Assembly (NCBI GenBank): GCA_016209685.1
Contig: JACQVQ010000005.1
Location: forward strand, 150,655 to 214,654
From: Planctomycetota bacterium
GTDB lineage: Bacteria; Planctomycetota; Brocadiia; Brocadiales; Bathyanammoxibiaceae
Direction: 5' to 3'
DNA length: 64,000 nt
Shown one piece after another: positions 3 through 63,348 of this stretch; positions within the stretch are counted from its first letter, which is position 1; each line of letters begins with the position of its first letter. The position numbers were made by a program, and so were the translations under genes. The notes under the pieces are model-generated. The model searched no databases and was not told the origin of the DNA. It saw nothing but the letters and a program-made list of their open reading frames with translations.

Positions 3-101
3 CAAAAGGCAGACAAGGAACTAGATTTCTGCCACGCACTTGAAAAGACTATACGGGAAATCATATACCGCCAATATAAAAAGCCAGAGCAGAGCCAGTA
101 G
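3..101 (+). CDS. C-terminal fragment of an upstream ORF (truncated by window edge), ...FCHALEKTIREIIYRQYKKPEQSQ*
   Basis: Open frame from base 3; its TAG stop is the first TAG of a palindromic GTAGGGGC element. Confidence 0.4.
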   Translation, partial: QKADKELDFCHALEKTIREIIYRQYKKPEQSQ

Positions 102-135
102 GGGCACATTGTCCGCCTGAGGCGGATGCCCCTAC
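98..135. repeat. Family A palindrome with a family C palindrome nested inside
   Basis: gtaggggcacat-tgtccgcctgaggcgga-tgcccctac. Confidence 0.85.
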
Positions 136-1385: not shown

Positions 1386-3341
1386 ATGCAAGAGCCGTTT
1401 GAGAGGATGGTACTATTAAACCCCGGCCCGGTGGTGGTATCGGAGAAGGTCAGGAAGGCCCTCCTTCGGGGAGATATCTGTCACAGGGAGGAAGAGTTCT
1501 CCCGCATCCTTAAGAGGGTAAGGCAGATGCTCCTTGCGGCCTTTACGCCTGGAGGGGGGTACACCTCGGCGATACTTACGGGTTCCGGCACTGCCGCCAT
1601 GGAGTCCTCTATAGCCTCCTCCGTTGGGGAAGGTAAGGCCATCCTGATAATCAACAACGGTGTCTATGGCGAGAGGTTCTCCCGTATGGCCTCCATCTAC
1701 GGCCACCGCAAGTTTGAGCTAGTCTACGACTGGAGGAAGTTGCCAGACCCTGGCGACATTGAAAAGGCCCTCAGAGAGCACCCGGAGATACAGGTAGTAG
1801 CCCTTGTGCACCATGAGACCTCTACGGGCCTGATTAACCCCGTGAGGGAGATTGGCAAGATAGCCAAGAAATACGGGAAGGTCTTCCTGCTGGACTCCAT
1901 AAGCGGCCTCGGGGGAGAGGAGTTAGACCTGGAAGGATGTAACGTAGACCTCTGCGTCGGCTCGGCCAACAAATGTATACAGGGGCTCCCGGGCCTTTCC
2001 TTTGTATTGATTAAAAAAGAAGAGATGGAGAGGCTAAAGAAGATACCCCCCCGTTCCATGTACCTCCATATACCTACCCTCTGGGAGAGTCAGGAAAAGG
2101 GCACCGTCCCCTTTACCCCGTCTATCCCGATATTTTATGCCCTGGAGGCGGCCCTGGAGGAACTCCTGGAAGAAGGAGTCCAGGGCAGGATTGCCCGCTA
2201 CAGGAAGGCCGCCGAGATCCTGCGTAGCGGCTTCAGAGAGATGGGCCTCAAGCCCTATCTGCCTGAGAAGTTACTATCCAATACCATCACGACCCTTTAT
2301 CTCCCCACCGGGTTTGACTATCAGACCCTCCATGACGGGTTAAAGGAGAGTAGGTTTGTAATTTATGCCGGACAGGAACGCCTCAAGGGAGAAATCTTCA
2401 GGGTGGCCAACATGGGGGAACTTACCAGGAAGGACCTGGAAGGCTTCCTGGGCTGTCTAAGGAAGATAGTCTCCCGCCCCTCTGCCTCAAGTAAGGCCGG
2501 GAGGTCTACGGTACGTGCCATAATCCTTGCGGCAGGGGTAGGTAAGAGGCTCATGCCCATTACGGGCCAGAGGCCCAAATGCCTGATAGAAATCGGCGGG
2601 AAGACCTTGCTGGATAGATACCTGGAATCCCTGAAAGAATCTTCCATCACAGAGGTCACCTTTGTACTGGGCCACCTGAAGGAAATGATACTCCCAAGGC
2701 TCAAGGAGGCAGAAAATACGTTTAAGACCCACTACATATACAATGAAAATTACACGAGGGGCAGTATCACCTCCCTCTGGGAGGCCAGGGAAAGACTCCA
2801 GGGCGACGTCCTCATTATGGACGCCGATGTACTATTCCACCCCACCCTTTTAAAAAGACTGCTTGAGTCCCCTAAAAAGAGTTGTTTCCTGCTGGAGGAG
2901 GACTTCACGGATACGGGAGAGGAGATGAAGCTCTTCGTCCAGGGGGAGCGGGTAGCGGCCATCTCTAAGAATGCGGAATTCGGAATTCAGAATGCGGAAT
3001 CCCGCACTCGGCAATCCGCACTCCGCAATCCGCACTCCGCAATCCGCACTTTAATTGGAGAGGGGGTAGGGTTCCTGAAGCTAGCCGGGGAGTATTGCCC
3101 TCAGCTTAGAAATACCCTGGAGGATTTTATTCGGGAAGGAAGGCTGGACGCAGAATATGAGGAGGCCCTGGACAGGCTGTTATCCTGCTGTGAGGTGGGC
3201 TACGAACCCGTAGACGGCCTCCCCTGGATAGAGATAGACTTTGAGGAAGACATACAGAGGGCAGAGAAGGATATACTGCCGATGTTAGACGGCAACAAGG
3301 GTGAACTGAGCCACAAAAAGGGATTGAAAGGACGCCCATGA
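1386..3341 (+). CDS. Fused 2-aminoethylphosphonate-pyruvate transaminase / phosphonate nucleotidyltransferase (PntC-like)
   Basis: N-terminus LLNPGPVVVSEKV with PLP-lysine context SANKCIQGLPG; C-terminus VRAIILAAGVGKRLMPITGQRPKCLIEIGGKTLLDR (NTP-transferase signature). Confidence 0.82.
   Translation: MQEPFERMVLLNPGPVVVSEKVRKALLRGDICHREEEFSRILKRVRQMLLAAFTPGGGYTSAILTGSGTAAMESSIASSVGEGKAILIINNGVYGERFSRMASIYGHRKFELVYDWRKLPDPGDIEKALREHPEIQVVALVHHETSTGLINPVREIGKIAKKYGKVFLLDSISGLGGEELDLEGCNVDLCVGSANKCIQGLPGLSFVLIKKEEMERLKKIPPRSMYLHIPTLWESQEKGTVPFTPSIPIFYALEAALEELLEEGVQGRIARYRKAAEILRSGFREMGLKPYLPEKLLSNTITTLYLPTGFDYQTLHDGLKESRFVIYAGQERLKGEIFRVANMGELTRKDLEGFLGCLRKIVSRPSASSKAGRSTVRAIILAAGVGKRLMPITGQRPKCLIEIGGKTLLDRYLESLKESSITEVTFVLGHLKEMILPRLKEAENTFKTHYIYNENYTRGSITSLWEARERLQGDVLIMDADVLFHPTLLKRLLESPKKSCFLLEEDFTDTGEEMKLFVQGERVAAISKNAEFGIQNAESRTRQSALRNPHSAIRTLIGEGVGFLKLAGEYCPQLRNTLEDFIREGRLDAEYEEALDRLLSCCEVGYEPVDGLPWIEIDFEEDIQRAEKDILPMLDGNKGELSHKKGLKGRP
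2968..3051. repeat. Family D (CGGAATNCGCAATCCGCA) array in-frame in AEPT-PntC
   Basis: 27-codon insert NAEFGIQNAESRTRQSALRNPHSAIRT. Confidence 0.92.
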
Positions 3342-8687: not shown

Positions 8688-8753
8688 AGCCCTGGTGGCG
8701 GAGCACCAGGGCTATAGCATTGGGGCTCTGCCCCCAATGCTCCGCCTCAGGCA
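8688..8753. repeat. Family B bipartite palindrome, intergenic
   Basis: agccctggtggcggagcaccagggctatagcattggggctctgcccccaatgct followed by a family C-like motif. Confidence 0.9.
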
Positions 8754-12359: not shown

Positions 12360-14117
12360 CTACCCAGGCTGGTTGGATATGAGGTGTATCCGCCTGTGGC
12401 CCACTGCGGCAGAGAGTAGATTGTAGACAGGAACCTTACTAGCCCCCTTCAAGGCGGCCAGTTGTGCATCCCCGATAATACAAAACACCCTCTCGCCCTT
12501 TGCTGATGGTGACCCTGCCCTGAATCGTCCCTTCTCCGCCTGAGGCGGACTCAAGGGCAGGTCTGGTTCAGGGCCAAGAAACTCTTCCAGCGCCCCCTGG
12601 TCGCTGAAGGTCTTTAACCGCCTCTTTGTATAGAACAAATAGGGCCCAATCTGGTGATACCCTATGCCGAAAATCCCTAGCGGCCTTTCTTTTACAACCC
12701 TTACGGCCTCCTGGCAAAAGGGCCTGGCAGAATTGCGGGGATTCAACTCCTTCTGGACAAAGGCGTGGTAATAGAATAATAGCAGCGAAAGGCCCACGAG
12801 GAGGGATATGAAGGCGGTCCACCGTTGGCGGAAATGGCCCTCCCGTCCGCCGTAGAGGAGTCCGAGGAAGAAAGACCCGCCCAGGAGGGTCAAGAAACTG
12901 CTGAGGGGGACAAACAGGGAGAGGTATTCGGGATATCTTTTTTTAACGAACCATAGCCCCAAGACCCCGACAAGGAGCATACACCCCGACATCACCCCTC
13001 CAGGTATCAGGACCCACCTCTTGTATGAGAGACACCCCTTGTTCAGAGTGCGGAATGTGGAATGCGGAGTGCAGAGTTCTTCCCAGAACCTCCCCACCAT
13101 CAGGGCCAGTGCGGGCATCATCGGTAAGAGGTACTTGGCCTGTTTAGCCTGGGCCAGGCTGAAGAAACAGAACATTACCACGGCCCAGGCCAGGAGGAAG
13201 TCCCTCTGAGGTCTCTCTTTCCCATTGAGAAACAGCAGATACACGGCGGATGGGAGAAACACCACCCAGGGGGAGAACTCCCAGGGCAGGTTCCAGAGGT
13301 AGTAATAAATGGGTTGCTTATGGCTCCAGGTCTCCAGGAACATCTGGAAATTGTGCTTGAGTATAAGCTCCCTGGTAAAATCAGCCCCTCCCCTACTGTA
13401 AGAGGCCAGATACCAGGGTATGGATACCACGAAGACTGCCACGATATAGAGGATTAGCCTGCGGTTAAGAAACTCTTTAATCCGCCCCTGGAGGGCAAGG
13501 AAGAGGGCGATTGTCAAGGAGGGGAGGATGATGGCCATAGGCCCTTTGGTAAGTACGCCCAGGCCCATACAGAAGGAGCCCAGGAGTAGGGGCACGTTGC
13601 AACGTGCCCCTACCGTGGGATTTGTGTAGCCATAATAAAAAAGGCTTAAAGATAGAGTAACAAAGGCACAGAGGAGCATATCCACCTGTACCCATCGTGC
13701 CTGGTGGAAATATATGGGGGTGGTAGCCAGCACCAGGGCTGAGAATAGGGCGGTCCTCCTATTACCATAAAGGGTCTTCCCCAGCCAATACGTGGCCAAT
13801 ACCCCAGCTAACCCCCCCAGGGCGGAAGGGAGTCGGGCAGTGACCTCTGTAACCTTCCCCAGGGGGAGGGATATTATTGCCACGGCCCAGTTAAAGAGGG
13901 GGGGTTTTTGGGCAGTGGGCTGGTCGTTCATCCTGGGTATTACCCAGTCGCCTGTATCAAGCATCTCCTGGGATATCTGGGCATACTCCCCTTCATCGGG
14001 GGCCCACAGGTCTCTCCCTCCCAGGTTAAAAAAGAATAGTACGATACACAGGGAGACAAGGAGGGCTATGCAGGGGCGGTCACTTTCAAATAACTCTTCT
14101 ATTGTTCCATTACCCAT
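12360..14117 (-). CDS. ArnT/PMT-like glycosyltransferase (GT83 family), paralog 1
   Basis: GGRDLWAPDEGEYAQISQEM...PPLFNWAV; carries several repeat insertions. Confidence 0.82.
   Translation of the reverse strand: MGNGTIEELFESDRPCIALLVSLCIVLFFFNLGGRDLWAPDEGEYAQISQEMLDTGDWVIPRMNDQPTAQKPPLFNWAVAIISLPLGKVTEVTARLPSALGGLAGVLATYWLGKTLYGNRRTALFSALVLATTPIYFHQARWVQVDMLLCAFVTLSLSLFYYGYTNPTVGARCNVPLLLGSFCMGLGVLTKGPMAIILPSLTIALFLALQGRIKEFLNRRLILYIVAVFVVSIPWYLASYSRGGADFTRELILKHNFQMFLETWSHKQPIYYYLWNLPWEFSPWVVFLPSAVYLLFLNGKERPQRDFLLAWAVVMFCFFSLAQAKQAKYLLPMMPALALMVGRFWEELCTPHSTFRTLNKGCLSYKRWVLIPGGVMSGCMLLVGVLGLWFVKKRYPEYLSLFVPLSSFLTLLGGSFFLGLLYGGREGHFRQRWTAFISLLVGLSLLLFYYHAFVQKELNPRNSARPFCQEAVRVVKERPLGIFGIGYHQIGPYLFYTKRRLKTFSDQGALEEFLGPEPDLPLSPPQAEKGRFRAGSPSAKGERVFCIIGDAQLAALKGASKVPVYNLLSAAVGHRRIHLISNQPG
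12513..12574. repeat. Family H element with nested family C palindrome, in-frame in GT83 paralog 1
   Basis: ccctgccctgaatcgtcccttctccgcctgaggcggactcaagggcaggtctggttcagggcc; cf. 48958-49010. Confidence 0.88.
13586..13613. repeat. Family A palindrome, in-frame in GT83 paralog 1
   Basis: Same 28-mer as 6527-6554; reads VGARCNVPL. Confidence 0.95.
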
Positions 14118-19499: not shown

Positions 19500-19585
19500 C
19501 TCAGTTGTCAGTCTTCAGTTGTCAGTCTTCAGACAACCGACCACTGCCTACCCCCTACTCCCTACTCCCTACCCCCTACTCCCTA

Positions 19586-21187
19586 TTACGGCCTATTGGA
19601 GACAAGGACAAAAGAAGGGGGGCCTTTCTCCCTGGGATTGGGAATTTCGGCCACCTTGTAGACCGATGCCCCTAACCCCCTGTAATCTGCCTCACCCAGG
19701 AGGCAATAGACCTTCTCCCTGGAGGAGAGAAGGGCCGTGAACTGCTCTTCCATGTATATACTACCTGGAAAGGTGTGGGTGTAATAGGTAAATGAGGGAC
19801 GATAATACTTATACACGGCCCACTTAGCCCCTGGTTCCATAATACCTAGTAGCTTCTGACATAAGGGCCTGTCAGAATTGGCGTTGTTCTGTAACGGCAG
19901 GAGAAACTGGCAATAAATCGCTTGATAGACGGACAGGACGAGCAAGATGACCCCAAAGAGGAGCTTCACCTGCGAGGCCCTGTAAGCCAGGTATACGGCT
20001 ATCAGCATACCTGCAACGACTAGAGAGAGGCCCAGGGCGGGATAGGGGAGCCGTCCCCCTTCAAACAAGGCCACCGCCACACCCGTCAAGGCGGCGATTA
20101 CAAGGACAGGCAGGCACTTTTGCCAGGACCATAAAGGAGGGCTCTTTGCCCAGTAGCCCTCCCACATCTGGGCCACCATCAGTGCCCCCGCCGGATAAAT
20201 GAACAAGATATATCTGCCGTGCTTGGTGCTAAGGAGACTAAATGCAATAAGGCCGACCAGTAACCAGAGAACAGGCAACGGGGATAAAGGTTTTCCTATT
20301 CCCTGTCCCCTGTCCCCTGTCCCCTGTTCCCTGTCTCTTGTCTCCTTATAGTATGAGTACAGGACCAGTGGTATAAAGATAGACCAGGGGGCCATGCTGA
20401 CCAGGAATTGGGGGAGATAGAAGTAGAAACTCTCAACGTGGTATTCCTCCTCCTTCAGGTACCATACCCCCCAGTTAAACAGGCCATTGAGGTAAGGCCC
20501 TGCCTTAAAATAAACAGGGACTAGCCAGAGGCATATAGTGCCAAAGAACACCAAGGCTCCCAGGAGAGGGAGGGTCTCCTTCAAGCGGTGTAACTCTTTT
20601 CTGAAGACCATGTAAGAGGACAGGGTAAGGACAATAATAAGTGGATAGACGGGCCCTTTTACCAGGCAGGAGAGGGCGGCAGAAAACCAGCCCAATAGAA
20701 ATAACCACCTCCTGGAGGTAGCAAGCCCTATATAGAAGCTGGCCAGGCTCAGGGTAAAAAAGAAGGCCACTGGCACGTCTATCCTTACCATGCAAGCAGA
20801 CCTGAAGAACCCAGGGGAGCTCAGGAGTATCAGGGCGGCCAGGAGTCCCGCCCGTTCGTTCAGCAGGGCCTTGCCCAGGAAGTACACTACGATTACCGTG
20901 CCCAGTGCGGCAAGGGCTGAAGGGAGGCGGGCGGTAAATTCCGTAACATCTCCGACAGGCAGACTGGCCAGGGCCATAAGCCAAAAGTACAGGGGGGGCT
21001 TTTCATTGTAGAGACCGCCATTGAAGTGGGGTACTAACCACCCCCAAGAGGTGGAGTGGAGGGCCTCTCTGGCCACCTGGGCATATTCCGTCTCTACGGT
21101 GCCCCAGAGGTCTCTGTTCCCCAATGCAGGCAGATAAAGGACAAGGCATAGGGAGGATAACAGCAGTACCCGGTGACTATCTCTCAT
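19586..21187 (-). CDS. ArnT/PMT-like glycosyltransferase (GT83), paralog 4
   Basis: GNRDLWGTVETEYAQVAREAL, KPPLYFWLMALAS. Confidence 0.82.
   Translation of the reverse strand: MRDSHRVLLLSSLCLVLYLPALGNRDLWGTVETEYAQVAREALHSTSWGWLVPHFNGGLYNEKPPLYFWLMALASLPVGDVTEFTARLPSALAALGTVIVVYFLGKALLNERAGLLAALILLSSPGFFRSACMVRIDVPVAFFFTLSLASFYIGLATSRRWLFLLGWFSAALSCLVKGPVYPLIIVLTLSSYMVFRKELHRLKETLPLLGALVFFGTICLWLVPVYFKAGPYLNGLFNWGVWYLKEEEYHVESFYFYLPQFLVSMAPWSIFIPLVLYSYYKETRDREQGTGDRGQGIGKPLSPLPVLWLLVGLIAFSLLSTKHGRYILFIYPAGALMVAQMWEGYWAKSPPLWSWQKCLPVLVIAALTGVAVALFEGGRLPYPALGLSLVVAGMLIAVYLAYRASQVKLLFGVILLVLSVYQAIYCQFLLPLQNNANSDRPLCQKLLGIMEPGAKWAVYKYYRPSFTYYTHTFPGSIYMEEQFTALLSSREKVYCLLGEADYRGLGASVYKVAEIPNPREKGPPSFVLVSNRP
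20297..20346. repeat. CCCTGTC heptamer array in-frame in GT83 paralog 4
   Basis: ttccctgtcccctgtcccctgtcccctgttccctgtctcttgtctcc; reads ETRDREQGTGDRGQGIG. Confidence 0.9.
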
Positions 21188-32263: not shown

Positions 32264-33547
32264 TTATTTTTGGGTCTTCTCCAATCCACCCAGAGTGGAC
32301 ACCCTCTCCTCCACGAAGGCGTACCATGGGCTATTTCTGGAGAAGGGGAGGTCCTTGTAACCCTCCAGTTCTGCCCCCATTGAGAAGAGGGTCAGCCCGG
32401 CCAGGGAGAGTTTTCTCTCGGGCAGGTCTTGATGCCTTTCCTTTATTACAACCTTTTTTAGGACCTTCTGTAATTCTACAGCCTTTTTGTTTATGGCTGG
32501 GTTATCTCTGAACTTTAGTCTCAGGGCATTCAGAAAACTACCCAGGTCGTAATGCATACTGTAAGGGATGTAGCGTCCGGCGATATGGGCACTGACGGTA
32601 AAAGAATCTGTGAGCATATCCACTTCTTTAAACCTCTTCACGGCCTGAGGCGATCCGCCGAAGGCGGACTTTAAAGTTAGGGCCAACTCCCCCAGTGGTG
32701 GCATTATTTCCGTAAAGGCCGCCAGGTCTATCACGGCTACGGTCAGTATATTGTCCAGCCTGGCAGGGGAGTACGAGGTAGTGTCTATGTAGGCGTCGGC
32801 TATGCGGGAGGCGATGTGGGGTGCGGGCATGGAAGGGTCTTCCATGAAGGCCATGAGGACGTCTCCGTAGGGCCAGCCGTCCAGGGCCTCCTCGTTCTCG
32901 GAGGCTATGACGTAACTGGCATAGTCCTTGATGGAAAACAAGACCTCCACCATGGCCAGGTAGCAGGCGTCCAGCCCCAGGATGTCAATCTTGTCCTTAC
33001 CATTAACCTTCTTTATTGCCCTGACGATACTGCCGAGGGCCTCTTCCAGTTCCGGGAGGCTCAAGACGTCCACTATCCCCTGTCCATCATTTAAGTCATG
33101 AAGCATACCCATCCATCCCTCGCCGTACCCACCGAGGAGCAGGAGGTAATTCTGGGCAGGCAGGTTCTCCACGGCCCATGTGGCAAAGGTGATTAGGGTC
33201 TGGGGGGCGCCTGTATTTAGTTCCTTACCCCTCCAGGAGGGGTCTATATCCTCTACGGGTAGTTCCAGCAGGTAGCCGTTTCTGACCTCGTAGAGATGTC
33301 CTCCCTTATCCAGCTTATCTACCAGGACTACCGTGCGGACGTCATAGCTTGCCGTGCCATGGCCCTCCCTGAGTTCTTCCAGGTTCTGCTGTGTGAACCA
33401 GTCCAGGAAGTTATCTCCGGCAAGGTATACTATGCAGGTCCATTTTGGAAGGGTCTTTATCTCCTGCCCGTGGCAATAGGCAGTAGGCAACAGGCAGTAG
33501 GCAGTAGACAGTAAGCAAAAAATGGCCTGCGGCGCAAATCTTCTCAT
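32264..33547 (-). CDS. Clostripain-like (C11) cysteine peptidase, secreted
   Basis: WTCIVYLAGDNFLDWF, ILGLDACYLAMVEVLFSIKDYASYVIASE; repeat-encoded signal peptide. Confidence 0.78.
   Translation of the reverse strand: MRRFAPQAIFCLLSTAYCLLPTAYCHGQEIKTLPKWTCIVYLAGDNFLDWFTQQNLEELREGHGTASYDVRTVVLVDKLDKGGHLYEVRNGYLLELPVEDIDPSWRGKELNTGAPQTLITFATWAVENLPAQNYLLLLGGYGEGWMGMLHDLNDGQGIVDVLSLPELEEALGSIVRAIKKVNGKDKIDILGLDACYLAMVEVLFSIKDYASYVIASENEEALDGWPYGDVLMAFMEDPSMPAPHIASRIADAYIDTTSYSPARLDNILTVAVIDLAAFTEIMPPLGELALTLKSAFGGSPQAVKRFKEVDMLTDSFTVSAHIAGRYIPYSMHYDLGSFLNALRLKFRDNPAINKKAVELQKVLKKVVIKERHQDLPERKLSLAGLTLFSMGAELEGYKDLPFSRNSPWYAFVEERVSTLGGLEKTQK
33474..33516. repeat. GGCAGTA heptamer array encoding the C11 peptidase signal-peptide core
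   Basis: aataggcagtaggcaacaggcagtaggcagtagacagtaagc; reads LLSTAYCLLPTAYC. Confidence 0.88.
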
Positions 33548-37393: not shown

Positions 37394-38661
37394 GTATGAT
37401 ACCTGGCGTTAATGGTCACGTACTTCTCAGAGAGGTCACAGGTCCAGACCTCGGCCTCTGCGCGGCCCAGCCCCAGTTCCAGCCGTAAATCTAGTTCTTT
37501 TCCTTGCATAATGTTTTTGAGCATTGGGGGCAGAGCCCCAATGCTATAGCCCTGGTGCTCCGCCACCAGGGCTTGGATAGGGCTGGCCACAGACGTTCCT
37601 CCCTCAAAAATTAACGACTCGCCAATATATAGCCTGAGCCTTTTTTCGTCAAGGGTAATACCCGTGGCCCCTGCCGCAGATATGATTCGGCCCCAGTTGG
37701 GGTCCTCCCCGTTTATGGCTGTCTTTACCAGGGGAGAGTTGGCAATGGCCCGTGCGATAACCCCGGCCTCTTTTTCCTTCTTAGCCCCTTTGACTATAAC
37801 CCTTACGAACTTGGTGGCCCCCTCGCCGTCCTTTACGATGGCCCTGGCCAGCACCTGGCAGAGGTGTCCAAGGGCCTCCTGGAAGGCGGTCAGGTCTCTG
37901 CCTCTAAGGCATGGCCCCCCACTGGCCCCATTTGCCATGAGGATTACCGTGTCATTGGTGCTCATGTGTCCGTCAATGGTAATCTGGTTGAAGGAGCGAC
38001 TCACTGCCCTCTGTAGACACGCCTTTGACTGTCTCCTGGTGAGCGTGGCATCGGTGGTGATAAAGGCGAGCATGGTAGCCATATTGGGGGCTATCATCCC
38101 TGCCCCCTTTGCCGCCCCTCCAAGGGTGATGGTACGGCCCCCTGTGTCTATCTTCAGCGCAAGCTCCTTGGGGCTGGTATCGGTGGTCATAATCGCCCTG
38201 GTAAACGACCTGCCGTGCTCGGGGTCCCTGCTCATCTTCTGACCGGCCTCTCTTATCCCTGCAAGTATCTTTTCCATGGGAAGCGGTTGACCTATGATGC
38301 CCGTGGAGGCCACAAGGACTTCGGAGGGGGAGAGGCCGAGTTCCCTGGCCGTGGCCTCTGCCATTGCCATGGCGTTGAGGTGGCCCTGGGCACCTGTGCA
38401 GGCGTTGGCGTTACCGCTATTTACTACCACTGCCCTGATGGGTCCCCTCTTGACGGTCTCCCTGCTCAATCTTACCGGGGCGGCCACTATCTGGTTGGTA
38501 GTAAAGAGGGCCGCCGCCCGGGCGGGGCGGTTGGATAGCAGGAGGGCCAGGTCGTAGCCCCCTTGTTTAATGCCACAGGCGCAGGCCCCGGCCAGGAAGC
38601 CAGAGGGTGCCACCACGCCACCAGAAACTTCTTGTATATTGTCTTTAGACATAGATAACAT
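37390..38661 (-). CDS. argJ: Bifunctional ornithine acetyltransferase/N-acetylglutamate synthase
   Basis: VVVNSGNANACTGAQG, GAAKGAGMIAPNMATMLAFITTDA, DPNWGRIISAAGATG. Confidence 0.92.
   Translation of the reverse strand: MLSMSKDNIQEVSGGVVAPSGFLAGACACGIKQGGYDLALLLSNRPARAAALFTTNQIVAAPVRLSRETVKRGPIRAVVVNSGNANACTGAQGHLNAMAMAEATARELGLSPSEVLVASTGIIGQPLPMEKILAGIREAGQKMSRDPEHGRSFTRAIMTTDTSPKELALKIDTGGRTITLGGAAKGAGMIAPNMATMLAFITTDATLTRRQSKACLQRAVSRSFNQITIDGHMSTNDTVILMANGASGGPCLRGRDLTAFQEALGHLCQVLARAIVKDGEGATKFVRVIVKGAKKEKEAGVIARAIANSPLVKTAINGEDPNWGRIISAAGATGITLDEKRLRLYIGESLIFEGGTSVASPIQALVAEHQGYSIGALPPMLKNIMQGKELDLRLELGLGRAEAEVWTCDLSEKYVTINARYHT
37521..37574. repeat. Family B palindrome in-frame in argJ
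   Basis: agcattgggggcagagccccaatgctatagccctggtgctccgccaccagggct; reads ALVAEHQGYSIGALPPML. Confidence 0.92.
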
Positions 38662-38752
38662 CCGCCTCGGGTGAAATAGCCAGTAGCTAGTAGCTGGTAG
38701 CTAGGGGTTGGATTTTTCTCCTAGCTACTAACTCCTAGCTACTAGTTACTGG

Positions 38753-44388: not shown

Positions 44389-44613
44389 GCCTTACCCTCC
44401 TTTAAAGGACCCTCAAAAGGGAAATACTTTTCTCAAAAGATGCTACTATAATAAATGCCAGGACGTATGTCAAGCAGTCTACGTTGACTTTTTGGGTTCA
44501 GGGACAAGGGGCAGGAACTAGGGGTCAGGGATTAGGGGTCAGAGGTCAGGGATTAGGGATTAGAAAAAGTTTATTTCCCTAATCCCTGGTCCCTGTTCCC
44601 TGTCCCCTAGTTC

Positions 44614-49065: not shown

Positions 49066-49929
49066 ATGCAAAAGATTAGACGCAAGTCTTTGCTTTATAA
49101 AAGCAGAGTAGAATTCGCCGACTTCTGCATCAACCACGTGGAGGGGTGTTCTCATGGATGTAGATACCCCTGTTACGCCATGATGATGAAGAAAAGGTGT
49201 GGCGTAATTTCTTCTTATGAGGATTGGTGCAGGCCAAAGATCGTTGAGAATGCCCTTGAACTGCTAGAAAGGGAGTTATCAAGATACAATGGTAAAATCA
49301 AATCAGTCCACCTGTGTTTCTCTACAGACCCGTTTATGTTCGGGTATGATGAGATAGGACAGTTAAGTCTAAGGCTAATGAGGAGGTTAAACAGCGAAAA
49401 TATCCCCTGTACCGTTCTCACAAAAGGCGTTTACCCAAAGGAGATTGCCTTGCCTGCCCTGTACCCTCATGGTACAGGGGATGAGAGGATGTCGCCAGCC
49501 CAGGTGACGGAGCACCTGGGCTATAGGGTTGGGGCTCTGCCCCCAACCCTGCCTCAGGCACGGAGGAGAAACAAGTTTGGCATAACGCTCGTCTCCTTAG
49601 ATGAGGACTTCAGGAGAGATTACGAACCTAATGCCGCCGGATTTGAGGAACGTATTAAGTCCCTTAGATACTTACATGAAAAAGGCTTCAAGACGTGGGT
49701 GAGCATGGAACCATACCCCACGCCCAATATAATAAGGCAAGACCTGCTTAAAATCCTGGAGGCGGTATCGTTTGCCGATGAGATTATCTTCGGGAGGTTA
49801 AACTACAGCCCCAGGACAAGGGTCTTTTCGCATTCAAAGACCTTCTATAATGACCAGGCAAAGGCTGTAGTAAATTTTTGCAAGAGAAATAATATTTCGT
49901 ATTATATCAAGGATGGGACTATAACTTAA
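49066..49929 (+). CDS. Radical SAM protein, spore photoproduct lyase-related, with CX3CX3C motif
   Basis: VEGCSHGCRYPCYAMMM; repeat-derived in-frame insert at 49456-49560. Confidence 0.72.
   Translation: MQKIRRKSLLYKSRVEFADFCINHVEGCSHGCRYPCYAMMMKKRCGVISSYEDWCRPKIVENALELLERELSRYNGKIKSVHLCFSTDPFMFGYDEIGQLSLRLMRRLNSENIPCTVLTKGVYPKEIALPALYPHGTGDERMSPAQVTEHLGYRVGALPPTLPQARRRNKFGITLVSLDEDFRRDYEPNAAGFEERIKSLRYLHEKGFKTWVSMEPYPTPNIIRQDLLKILEAVSFADEIIFGRLNYSPRTRVFSHSKTFYNDQAKAVVNFCKRNNISYYIKDGTIT
49456..49560. repeat. Family G + B + C-like elements in tandem, in-frame in radical SAM
   Basis: gccctgtaccctcatggtacagggg ... cccaggtgacggagcacctgggctatagggttggggctctgcccccaaccct ... gcctcaggca. Confidence 0.92.
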
Positions 49930-53835: not shown

Positions 53836-53906
53836 AAATGCGGAGTTCGGAATACGGAGTGCGGAATTGAAACAACTCCGCAATCCGCATTCTGCATTCC
53901 GCATTC
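53836..53906. repeat. Family D array
   Basis: aatgcggagttcggaatacggagtgcgg...ccgcattctgcattccgcattc. Confidence 0.9.
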
Positions 53907-54705: not shown

Positions 54706-56431
54706 AGGCCACCTCTGCCGTTACCAATGTACCATCCGATTTTTTGATTCTGAATTTTAACTTGCCCGCCGCCTCATCAAGCCAAGCAGTAGTCTCACTA
54801 TTGGAGAGGTCGGCATCTGTGGGGGCTGAGTTCGGCACCCCAAGGCTGAGCCTGCCTGCCACGTGGGCCAGAAACTTTGGGGCAGTCGTACCAATGCCTA
54901 CCTTGCCATCGGTCAGGATGTTGAATGGTTCGCTTGTCCCGATTACCCCTATCGTAAAGCGGTCGCTCCCCCCTGAGCCATACCTGTATATACCCCAGGT
55001 AGAGCCGCCTGACCTGCCTAGACGCATGGCCACTACCCCATCGGCCTGATTATGCAGATGGAGTCTTGCACTTGGGCTGTTAGTGCCGATACCCAGATTC
55101 TTACTTGAATTGTCCCAATAAAGATACCCGTTATCCTCTGTGAACAATCCGCCTGTACCAATGAATGGCACAGAGCCAGTGGTGAGGGACGTGGCCTTGA
55201 GGCTACCAGCCGCTATGGTCGCCCAGGAATCATTTATGTTTTTCACCTGGAGCGTCTCATCAATGTTTTGGAGTAAGAGGTCTGTAACAGGAGTGGCATC
55301 CACGTCCTTGAGTCTGAATCTGCCGTTACAATATAATCGCCCTGCCCCCTGTGGCCTCATCTCTATATCTATGTCTGTGTCCGTCCCGTATGCCGCAATC
55401 CCTAAAAACCCATCACTGGCAGGGATAGCAAGACGGCCATATTTAGCAGCGTTATACTGCCCCCATTCAAGCCATCTTCTTATGCCTACATCGCCTATAT
55501 TATCTGCGCTGAATACTGTATCCGTATTGTTGGTGAATGAAAATAATGGCTGCCCGCCAGGGACGGCCTTTGTATCTTTGATACGGAAGAGTGCGCCTAA
55601 TACTGAAGTATCCCCCTCTGCGTTAACCAACCCATCTACGGTCGGCGTACCTACAGCTAATTGTGATAGTATCAATGGGGCATAGGCGGTATTGGTGGAG
55701 TTTCTGGCCCTTAGGGCACCGTCTATCACGTCAAGGAGTACATCACCAACCGGCGTAGCATCCACATCTTTAATCTTGGGACTCTGCAAGAGCTTGTTGA
55801 GGAGGGTCTGGACATCAGTAGTCCCAACAAGTGAGCCACTAACCCCATGAACGCCAGAGGAGGCCCCCAGGTGGGTATCAATTTGAGCGTGGGTGTTTGA
55901 GCCTATGTCGCTAAGGACGGTATGGGACTTGGTAGTGATGTCCGCAAGACTGGAGACGGTCTTGTCTATATACCCCCAGGGGTAGTCCCCCAATTGGGGC
56001 ACCACTGCCCCTGTCCTGCCGAAGACGGAGAGGACGGTATCAGTAGGAGTAAGGAGTTCGCTCCAATCAGCCATAGTACCAGCCGTACCGCCGTTGTGGG
56101 CGTAGGATTTATTCTGGTCGGTGCGGATGGCGATGTCGCCCTCCTGAGCGGTGAGGGCAAGTTGTGCCACCTCGGAGGCCACCGTCCATATATCCGTCAG
56201 GGCCAGGGCAGGGAGTTGGGAGGAGGGGACCTTACCCCCGCTATCCAGTTCCGCAAGGCCGTTGGGCTGTCCTGGTTCACGACCGTCTACCTTGTCGGCA
56301 TCCAGGCCAGAGCCTGCACCCTGGTTGGTCTTGGTAACGGCTAAAATGTCTATTATGTCGCCTGAGCCTAGTTTATGTTTGACTGGCATTTGTTTGTCCT
56401 TTCCGTAGGGGCGAACGGCCCTATACCACAA
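54698..56431 (-). CDS. Tail fibre-like protein
   Basis: LDSGGKVPSSQLPALALTDIWTV, SVFGRTGAVV, internal KDVDATPVxDxLLxxID repeats. Confidence 0.7.
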   Translation of the reverse strand: MWYRAVRPYGKDKQMPVKHKLGSGDIIDILAVTKTNQGAGSGLDADKVDGREPGQPNGLAELDSGGKVPSSQLPALALTDIWTVASEVAQLALTAQEGDIAIRTDQNKSYAHNGGTAGTMADWSELLTPTDTVLSVFGRTGAVVPQLGDYPWGYIDKTVSSLADITTKSHTVLSDIGSNTHAQIDTHLGASSGVHGVSGSLVGTTDVQTLLNKLLQSPKIKDVDATPVGDVLLDVIDGALRARNSTNTAYAPLILSQLAVGTPTVDGLVNAEGDTSVLGALFRIKDTKAVPGGQPLFSFTNNTDTVFSADNIGDVGIRRWLEWGQYNAAKYGRLAIPASDGFLGIAAYGTDTDIDIEMRPQGAGRLYCNGRFRLKDVDATPVTDLLLQNIDETLQVKNINDSWATIAAGSLKATSLTTGSVPFIGTGGLFTEDNGYLYWDNSSKNLGIGTNSPSARLHLHNQADGVVAMRLGRSGGSTWGIYRYGSGGSDRFTIGVIGTSEPFNILTDGKVGIGTTAPKFLAHVAGRLSLGVPNSAPTDADLSNSETTAWLDEAAGKLKFRIKKSDGTLVTAEVAYA

Positions 56432-56497
56432 GGGTACAGGGCAGGGATGCAGGGTAAGCCCTGAACCGTTTCTGGTTCAGGGGCCGTTCGCCCCTAC
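56405..56497. repeat. Composite nested palindrome
   Basis: Outer arms gtaggggcgaacggcc/ggccgttcgcccctac enclosing ccctatacc..ggtacaggg and ctgaaccgtttctggttcag. Confidence 0.85.
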
Positions 56498-57966: not shown

Positions 57967-58236
57967 TCATTCCCCTGTCTGCTGACCCCTGACTGCTGAC
58001 TGCTGATTCCTGTCTTTCTTCAACTTATCCAGCTTCTTTGCAATCTCAAACTGCTGGTGGAAGCCCAGGCGACAGAGCGCCTGGGCTATAGGGTTGGGGC
58101 TCTGCCCCCAACCCTGGGCCAGGACAAAGAAGCCCAGTATCCAGCACAGGGTCAGGGCTATAGTAACCAGGGTATCTAGCATTTTAATTCCGAATTCCGA
58201 AGTCCGAATTCCGAATTCGGGCTTCTGTCCGTACAC
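57967..58236 (-). CDS. Small TM protein largely assembled from dispersed repeats
   Basis: FGIRTSEFGIK + MLDTLVTIALTLCWILGFFVLAQ + GWGQSPNPIAQAL + NQQSAVRGQQ. Confidence 0.4.
   Translation of the reverse strand: MYGQKPEFGIRTSEFGIKMLDTLVTIALTLCWILGFFVLAQGWGQSPNPIAQALCRLGFHQQFEIAKKLDKLKKDRNQQSAVRGQQTGE
58063..58114. repeat. Family B palindrome in ORF 57967
   Basis: gcccaggcgacagagcgcctgggctatagggttggggctctgcccccaacc. Confidence 0.92.
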
Positions 58237-58528: not shown

Positions 58529-59313
58529 TGGACCTCCTTAACTCTGGCGTTCATATCTAGCGGGGTGGATGAATGCCTCTCCGCTAGGGTGGCGTTGATT
58601 TCCTCTCTCATGTCGGGATGCTTGACCTTCAAATCTTCAACCCCTTCAATGGTATCTATGTTGGCCTTCTTCTCCCTCCTGGCCCGTCTCAAGAGCCAGG
58701 CGCTGACACCTCCGCCTGTACCGGCGGTTGCGAGGCCAATGGCCCAGGGAAGGATGTCATTGAACGTCCACTTGGCGATACCTTTCATCTGCTCTATGGC
58801 CTGAGGATAGGCCTGCATACCTATGGCCCCCTGCATACCTGCGTAGGCGAGATACTGGGCAGTGGAGGTCTCCGTGCTATCAATTCCCCTGCCTGCTATC
58901 CCGCTCACGGCCTTTGTCGTACCGTCCACTGTTCCGATTTCTCGCAGCACTTTATCTTCCAATCCCACTCTAACTATGCCCGCCACTGCATTGGCGTTGA
59001 TGTTGGTCAGGGCCTCGGGGTCCTTAGTGTTCTTTGCCGATTCGGTGGCGACGGTCTTTATGGCCTCCACCTTCGCCTGGGCAATGGGGACAGCCACCTC
59101 CTTCATGGCTGTTACCTTCTCCTTCTGTGCCTCAGCCACGGCCTTGACGGACTCAATAGAGATTTCCTTGCTGGCCTGTACCTGGTGTTCCTTTGGCCCC
59201 GGGGCCTGGACTATCGGGAAGGACATACAACCGCTGAGTAGTAGTAGTCCGCCTGAGGCGGATATGTATCTGCCCACAATTTGTAAAGACTTTTTCATAC
59301 GTTCCTCCTTCAC
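58468..59313 (-). CDS. Lipoprotein of phage-like module
   Basis: GGLLLLSGC lipobox; Ala/Lys/Glu-rich helical region. Confidence 0.55.
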   Translation of the reverse strand: MKEERMKKSLQIVGRYISASGGLLLLSGCMSFPIVQAPGPKEHQVQASKEISIESVKAVAEAQKEKVTAMKEVAVPIAQAKVEAIKTVATESAKNTKDPEALTNINANAVAGIVRVGLEDKVLREIGTVDGTTKAVSGIAGRGIDSTETSTAQYLAYAGMQGAIGMQAYPQAIEQMKGIAKWTFNDILPWAIGLATAGTGGGVSAWLLRRARREKKANIDTIEGVEDLKVKHPDMREEINATLAERHSSTPLDMNARVKEVQWERERQKKFGQKNAPVAKV

Positions 59314-59403
59314 AGGCTAAAGTCATGCCAAAGGCAGACCTGCCTCAGGCACGGCCTGCGGCTACTATTCCCTGACCCCTAAGTTCATGCCCAATCAAAC
59401 CTC

Positions 59404-60377: not shown

Positions 60378-60482
60378 ATTCCGAGTGTGGAATGGGGAAT
60401 GCGGAATGCGGAATGCGAAGTTATTTTAATTCCGCATTCCGCAATCCGAAATCCGCATTTAAAACATTCCGCATTCCGCATT
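60378..60482. repeat. Family D array
   Basis: gaatgcggaatgcggaatgcg...attccgcattccgcatt. Confidence 0.9.
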
Positions 60483-63167: not shown

Positions 63168-63348
63168 AATCTTTCTGCTGTCTGCTGACTGCTGACTACT
63201 GACTGCTGTCTCCTGTCTGCTGACCCTACACCTCTTTATATAACATATCTTTCAAAAGAGTAAATGGCTGGATTCAACAGGATGCCACCGGATTTAACAG
63301 GGGAGTCAAAAATAAGTGATATTGGGTGCGTCCAGACGCACCTTACTA

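Follow-up and report, generated by a model that had tools for sequence, protein, structure and literature searches.

Palindromes nested at the centres of GTAG REP sequences in the genome of a Planctomycetota bacterium

An element of nested palindromes between two genes

The stretch of DNA analysed here (the window) covers 64,000 nt of one contig (C3:150655-214654) of a 2.02-Mb genome assembled in 14 contigs; below, C and a number before a colon denotes a contig of this genome (G000), and L denotes a fetched locus. Two minus-strand genes, both without Pfam matches, flank a 111-bp gap that contains a 93-base element (Table 1), to which Rfam assigned no family. Its outer arms (56405-56421 and 56481-56497) are perfectly complementary over 17 bp, and as single-stranded DNA either strand folded better than 200 of 200 shuffled sequences (z scores of -8.4 and -9.4). 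The arms carry a 28-bp palindrome, GTAGGGGCGAACGGCCGTTCGCCCCTAC, which is split 14|14 by a 65-nt insert at 56419-56483 with no host base lost. These features bear out the nesting of palindromes that the original prediction had placed at 56405-56497.

The insert is a twin hairpin, that is, two hairpins and a 17-nt joint. The second hairpin had been taken for a half of a family H palindrome; CCCTGAACCGTTTCTGGTTCAGGG is a complete hairpin, of the B/H family. Guest twin hairpins of this family (B) end in CCCT..AGGG in every aligned copy, and none has a GTAG foot. At the window nest, a target-site duplication of as many as 4 bp (GGCC) would look the same as none, given that GGCC is itself palindromic.

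Table 1. Positions in the window of the 93-base nest and its parts, of other nests and of heptamer repeats
Feature	Position	Strand	Remarks
Whole composite element	56405..56497	.	takes up most of the gap of 111 bp; full-length relatives elsewhere
Host double-foot GTAG REP, left half, GTAGGGGCGAACGG	56405..56418	.	
Guest hairpin 1, CCCTATACCACAAGGGTACAGGG	56419..56441	.	B family, ACAA loop
17-nt spacer in guest twin-hairpin module	56442..56458	.	sequence
Guest hairpin 2, CCCTGAACCGTTTCTGGTTCAGGG	56459..56482	.	B/H family
Host double-foot GTAG REP, right half, CCGTTCGCCCCTAC	56484..56497	.	
38-bp composite, C palindrome in GTAGGGGCACRTTG.. REP	98..135	.	C palindrome at 112-126; host shorter by about 5 nt
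CCCTGAATC../..GGTTCAGGG hairpin with 33-nt insert	12517..12574	.	C core at 12535-12549
GTAG REP of the type flanking the C9 RAYT, holding d-type twin palindrome	59313..59365	.	
Heptamer tandem repeats	3002-3050, 19501-19585, 20301-20346, 33472-33518, 38682-38743		
Heptamer tandem repeats (continued)	44494-44563, 53837-53905, 60391-60459, 63174-63222		

The window also contains heptamer-based tandem repeats, several of them arranged as long inverted repeats (e.g., the GGAATGC, GTAGCTA and AAATTGG types), which we take to resemble the heptanucleotide repeats of cyanobacteria.

The host is a dispersed double-foot GTAG REP

The outer 28-mer is a double-foot GTAG REP and belongs to a dispersed family of palindromes (A): within the 20-40 bp range of such palindromes, it has the GTAG foot at one end and the complement CTAC at the other. 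The same arrangement of foot and complement is given for TnpA-REP subclass 2.4 in the description by Quentin et al. 2018 (PMC6006769), where double-foot REPs are a trait of that subclass, as are REPs in frame within the gene. Allowing two mismatches and an A/C variant, we found GTAGGGGCGAACGGCCGTTCGCCCCTAC at about 37 places in this genome; there were 24 copies in the same-genus genome G001 (corresponding to Planctomycetes bacterium RIFCSPHIGHO2_12_FULL_52_36, with contig C101 matching L130), 18 in G002 and 11 in the same-family genome G004 (corresponding to RIFCSPLOWO2_12_FULL_50_35, with contig C98 matching L113). The identical 28 bases are also present in 12 or more phylum-level groups (loci L101-L212), among them cyanobacteria, Chloroflexi, Nitrospirae, WOR-3, Omnitrophota and Uhrbacteria. 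Our observations suggest that the 28-mer has spread widely by horizontal transfer, jointly with the RAYT.

Repeats were surveyed by pattern searches and in a 464-kb sample of the genome, whose stretches were selected partly for the presence of A copies. Across many sub-families in this sample, GTAGGGGC/GCCCCTAC are invariant in the host REP and the inner 5-6 bp differ, with full compensation. Palindromes are dense, with 79 hairpins over 124 kb as against 4 in a Markov control.

Repeats of this kind can break assemblies: contigs C2 and C13 each start 24 nt before the same 28-mer (C2:25-52 and C13:25-52), which suggests that the assembly breaks there. We nevertheless give almost no credence to the nests being products of chance or of assembly, since shuffle and Markov controls exclude the former and the same composites recur in several independently binned genomes.

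The site in related genomes

The same two-gene gap lacks a GTAGGGGC palindrome in G002, holds a simple palindrome, GTAGGGGCGGCCGACCGGCCGCCCCTAC, in G001, with a spacing to the start codon similar to that of the nest, and holds the nest in the genome under study. These three states fit a stepwise filling of the site, with a difference of stem sub-family between G001 and this genome. Because the G001 palindrome is of another sub-family (GGCCG) than the window host, the window nest may not descend directly from it.

Full-length relatives of the 93-bp nest lie at three other places in this genome, at three in G001 and at one in G005 (cut by a contig end). All of them combine GTAGGGGCGACCCGCC../..GGCGGGTCGCCCCTAC arms with a related guest, and the similarity among them ends at the element borders; at L027 and L031, from two species, 90 bp are identical and the flanks are unrelated. 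The arms of the window nest are of a sub-family other than that of these relatives. The window guest shares 78% identity with the h-type guests, which are themselves 84-87% identical to some un-nested B-dimer guests. Judging from arm sub-family and guest identities, the window nest looks like a separate insertion event.

Other nests and their copying as units

Two further nests had been predicted with a C palindrome as guest, inside A at 98-135 and inside H at 12513-12574; both are present, the latter at 12517-12574. A third, at 59333-59364, is likewise a nest, but not a C-like motif within family F as had been proposed: a 32-nt d-type twin palindrome (59323-59354) lies between the arms CAGGCTAAAG (59313-59322) and CCTGCGGCTAC (59355-59365) of a CAGGCTAAAG|CCTGCGGCTAC REP. 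Nests of three layers also occur, for example at C11:83811-83878, where A encloses d and d encloses C, and at C8:404131, where C lies within the 93-mer. Off-centre nests are found at L051:6883 and L069:8729. A 54-bp twin palindrome, AGCCCTGG..CCAGGGCT-AT-AGCATTGGGG..CCCCAATGCT or close variants of it, lies in the window at 8688-8741, 37520-37573, 49497-49550 and 58062-58115; at L051:6883 and in G001 (L046), one copy is interrupted away from its centre by a double hairpin, with the same junction at both loci.

The nest at 98-135 is one of six copies in the 464-kb sample, and many more exist in the genome and in G001, with identical junctions throughout. The fixed junctions of the 38-bp nest and of the relatives of the 93-bp nest at unrelated loci indicate that composites have spread as units. 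As a result, nest counts overstate the number of insertion events.

A different history would make the 93-mer the original long element, a REPIN- or MITE-like hairpin, and the 28-mer the product of its central deletion, with no insertion at all. Double-foot REPs can form when an inverted REP dimer loses its central part (PMC6006769), and the whole 93-mer can fold as a single long hairpin in which hairpins 1 and 2 pair. Inverted REP pairs with GTAG outermost are, moreover, frequent in this genome, an arrangement shared with REPINs (PMC3116915), although the inner hairpins of the window nest differ from those of REPINs in lacking a GTAG foot and in belonging to another family. We regard such a deletion as unlikely. 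The guest modules also occur alone elsewhere, without GTAG arms; three unrelated guest kinds occupy the same A centre; the 28-mer is abundant in phyla in which a scan of wider genome contigs found no 93-mer pattern (near relatives possibly lying outside the scan); and the h-type guests are closer to un-nested B dimers than to the window guest.

Loop preference differs among guests

We then considered where guests lie within their hosts, with counts that are not independent, as copies share ancestry, and with pattern searches that detect only nests or junctions leaving 8 intact nt at either end. In A-type REPs, six nest classes are loss-free, and their junctions lie no more than about 2 nt from the centre (p = 0.003 against a uniform distribution over visible positions). 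When classes that lose 3-10 nt are included, 10 of 12 nest classes have junctions that come to 2 nt or less from the centre (p = 0.002 in the same comparison). Insertion at palindrome centres above expectation, as had been predicted, thus stands for nest classes in A palindromes, but many individual nests are copies of one composite.

Central junctions might also arise by survival, if guests insert anywhere and only central insertions leave the REP arms paired, and so mobile or detectable. Indeed, the amplified nests (the 38-mer, the 58-mer and the 93-mer h) all retain both intact feet. We find this explanation rather improbable, as the single-copy nests (the window nest, C4:2601 and C8:316042) are central too and d-type guests are still mostly in REP loops when the host is disregarded.

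The d-type guest is a 30-32 nt twin palindrome, TCRTGCCNNAGGCAGA plus YYCGCC..GGCGAA, with 41 copies in the genome. We sampled 30 copies in contig order, irrespective of host, scoring as enclosed any copy within a stem of 7 bp or longer; random places gave a null expectation of 2.2%. Sixteen of the 30 were enclosed, by six different host palindromes, an enrichment that remains at about p = 4e-6 after collapsing hosts. In clear cases the host is complete on both sides of the guest, and d-type insertions have no target-site duplication. The bias was weaker for C, the 15-nt palindrome TCCGCCTNAGGCGGA: 6 of 36 collapsed copies were enclosed against the same 2.2% (p = 1e-4), and the majority lie outside palindromes, some apparently in genes. 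In C nests, 4-6 host nt are replaced, mostly with G before and T after the guest.

By contrast with d and C, A palindromes showed no loop enrichment as guests (2/55 against the 2.2% null), and only 1 of 21 single B hairpins was enclosed in a loop. The proposal that palindrome loops are preferred targets therefore holds in part: loop preference is real for particular guests and is not a general property of the repeats. We also considered nesting as a by-product of repeat-dense intergenic DNA, which is ruled out by the lack of enrichment of the A palindromes located there.

The nests might, alternatively, have been created by template switching during replication or by hairpin repair, with no need for guest transposition. 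The replacement of 4-6 host nt near the loop in C nests is in line with this, as is the mixing of arms from two REP sub-families in some nests (C8:425244). On the other hand, the host is complete in B, d and the 50-bp class, and the guest families are dispersed and number dozens of copies, so that we hold this route to be quite improbable.

RAYT genes and the host palindrome

The prediction had called for a RAYT or Y1 transposase, and such genes are present, with five or more Y1 genes in the genome, one of which is flanked by the host palindrome and also contains it. This gene, C14:33136-33729, was missed by a Pfam Y1 search alone and was recovered by a protein search of the fetched loci. The window's 28-mer flanks it upstream and recurs in frame, where it encodes VGANGRSPL between the HuH and Y motifs, as in subclass 2.4; the G001 orthologue is likewise flanked by the same REP. 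The protein scores just above the cut-off of Pfam Y1_Tnp, and a PDB sequence search with it found nothing. A Foldseek search with its predicted model gave as best PDB match 4er8, the E. coli RAYT in complex with a REP hairpin (E = 1.3e-6); the REP-encoded stretch is modelled as a low-confidence loop.

The 28-mer is also in frame in RAYTs of G001, a WOR-3 bacterium, a Wallbacterium and two cyanobacteria, and the RAYT on C11 has a different A sub-family at the equivalent position. RAYTs at L069:8130-8729 (C14:33130-33729), L065:8901-9554, L130, L111, L140, L192 and L206 each carry their own REP sub-family in frame. The encoded peptides, VGANGRSPL or VGAGFKPAPT, directly follow the HUH motif, and at several loci the in-frame REP matches the flanking one. 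We dropped the idea that in-frame REPs are a new trait, as the account of TnpA-REP subclass 2.4 in PMC6006769 already includes them.

Other RAYTs have other palindromes as neighbours. The one on C9 has ..CGCAGGCTNNAGCCTGCG.. REPs on either side, of the same type as the host in the nest at 59313-59365, and the one on C13 is flanked by GTAGGGTGCG.. palindromes. At the relatives' RAYT loci obtained by Pfam search, no GTAGGGGC palindrome adjoins the gene, and among the RAYT loci examined none is flanked on both sides by guest family B, C or d. From its sequence and setting, the C14 RAYT is a plausible mobiliser of the hosts; its links are to the host palindromes, and none to the guests was found.

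Discussion

We think it probable, on balance, that guests enter the exact centre, or loop, of GTAG REPs and that the resulting composites are then mobilised in turn as new units. The host is a single double-foot GTAG REP, and palindromes of this kind are mobilised by TnpA-REP/RAYT enzymes. Its hairpin or cruciform, extruded on supercoiled or single-stranded (lagging-strand) DNA, would expose the loop, and a second mobile palindrome, here the twin hairpin CCCT..AGGG, would enter the REP centre with host bases kept, most likely by strand transfer into single-stranded DNA. The guest would presumably be moved by an HUH enzyme. B twin hairpins, d-type twin palindromes and the 15-nt C would be several guest families that do so in this genome. 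Because both host feet are intact, as is the stem, the composite could be mobilised by the host's TnpA-REP, provided that the RAYT is still functional, and further layers could follow. Since C nests lose 4-6 host nt, unlike those of B and d, a single mechanism may not fit all guests, and C nests may need another route. More tentatively, the gene-less guest palindromes of 15-65 nt could be specific parasites of REPs, which enter the single-stranded loops of several unrelated GTAG-REP families and are mobilised again by the host TnpA-REP into three-layered elements.

Palindromes within palindromes have been described before. In the GTAG-15 dimers of A. variabilis, and in GTAG-23 of T. roseum and CGTC-1 of H. 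neapolitanus (Di Nocera et al. 2013, PMC3733652), palindrome dimers lie within larger or target palindromes. There the REPs are the guests and no free target palindromes were found in two of the three cases, whereas in the present genome GTAG REPs act as hosts, both hosts and guests are also common in the free state, and there are up to three layers. Insertion at the symmetry axes of REPs is known for IS elements (Tobes and Pareja 2006, PMC1525189); those guests are complete IS elements that encode a transposase of their own, with direct repeats in the cases described, whereas those reported here are gene-less palindromes of 15-65 nt without a clear target duplication. The available text of Quentin et al. 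2018 (PMC6006769) describes neither centre-nested palindromes nor composites spreading as units. In the open-licence literature we found no report of a quantified loop bias of gene-less guests over several REP families, or of composites that spread as units.

For the question of how REPs and tiny palindromes spread, nested copies with intact host halves provide exact insertion sites, before and after. The loop bias seen in some of the guest families suggests that hairpin or single-stranded DNA is the target, and a genome rich in free hosts, free guests and composites, with several RAYT genes, makes the question testable.
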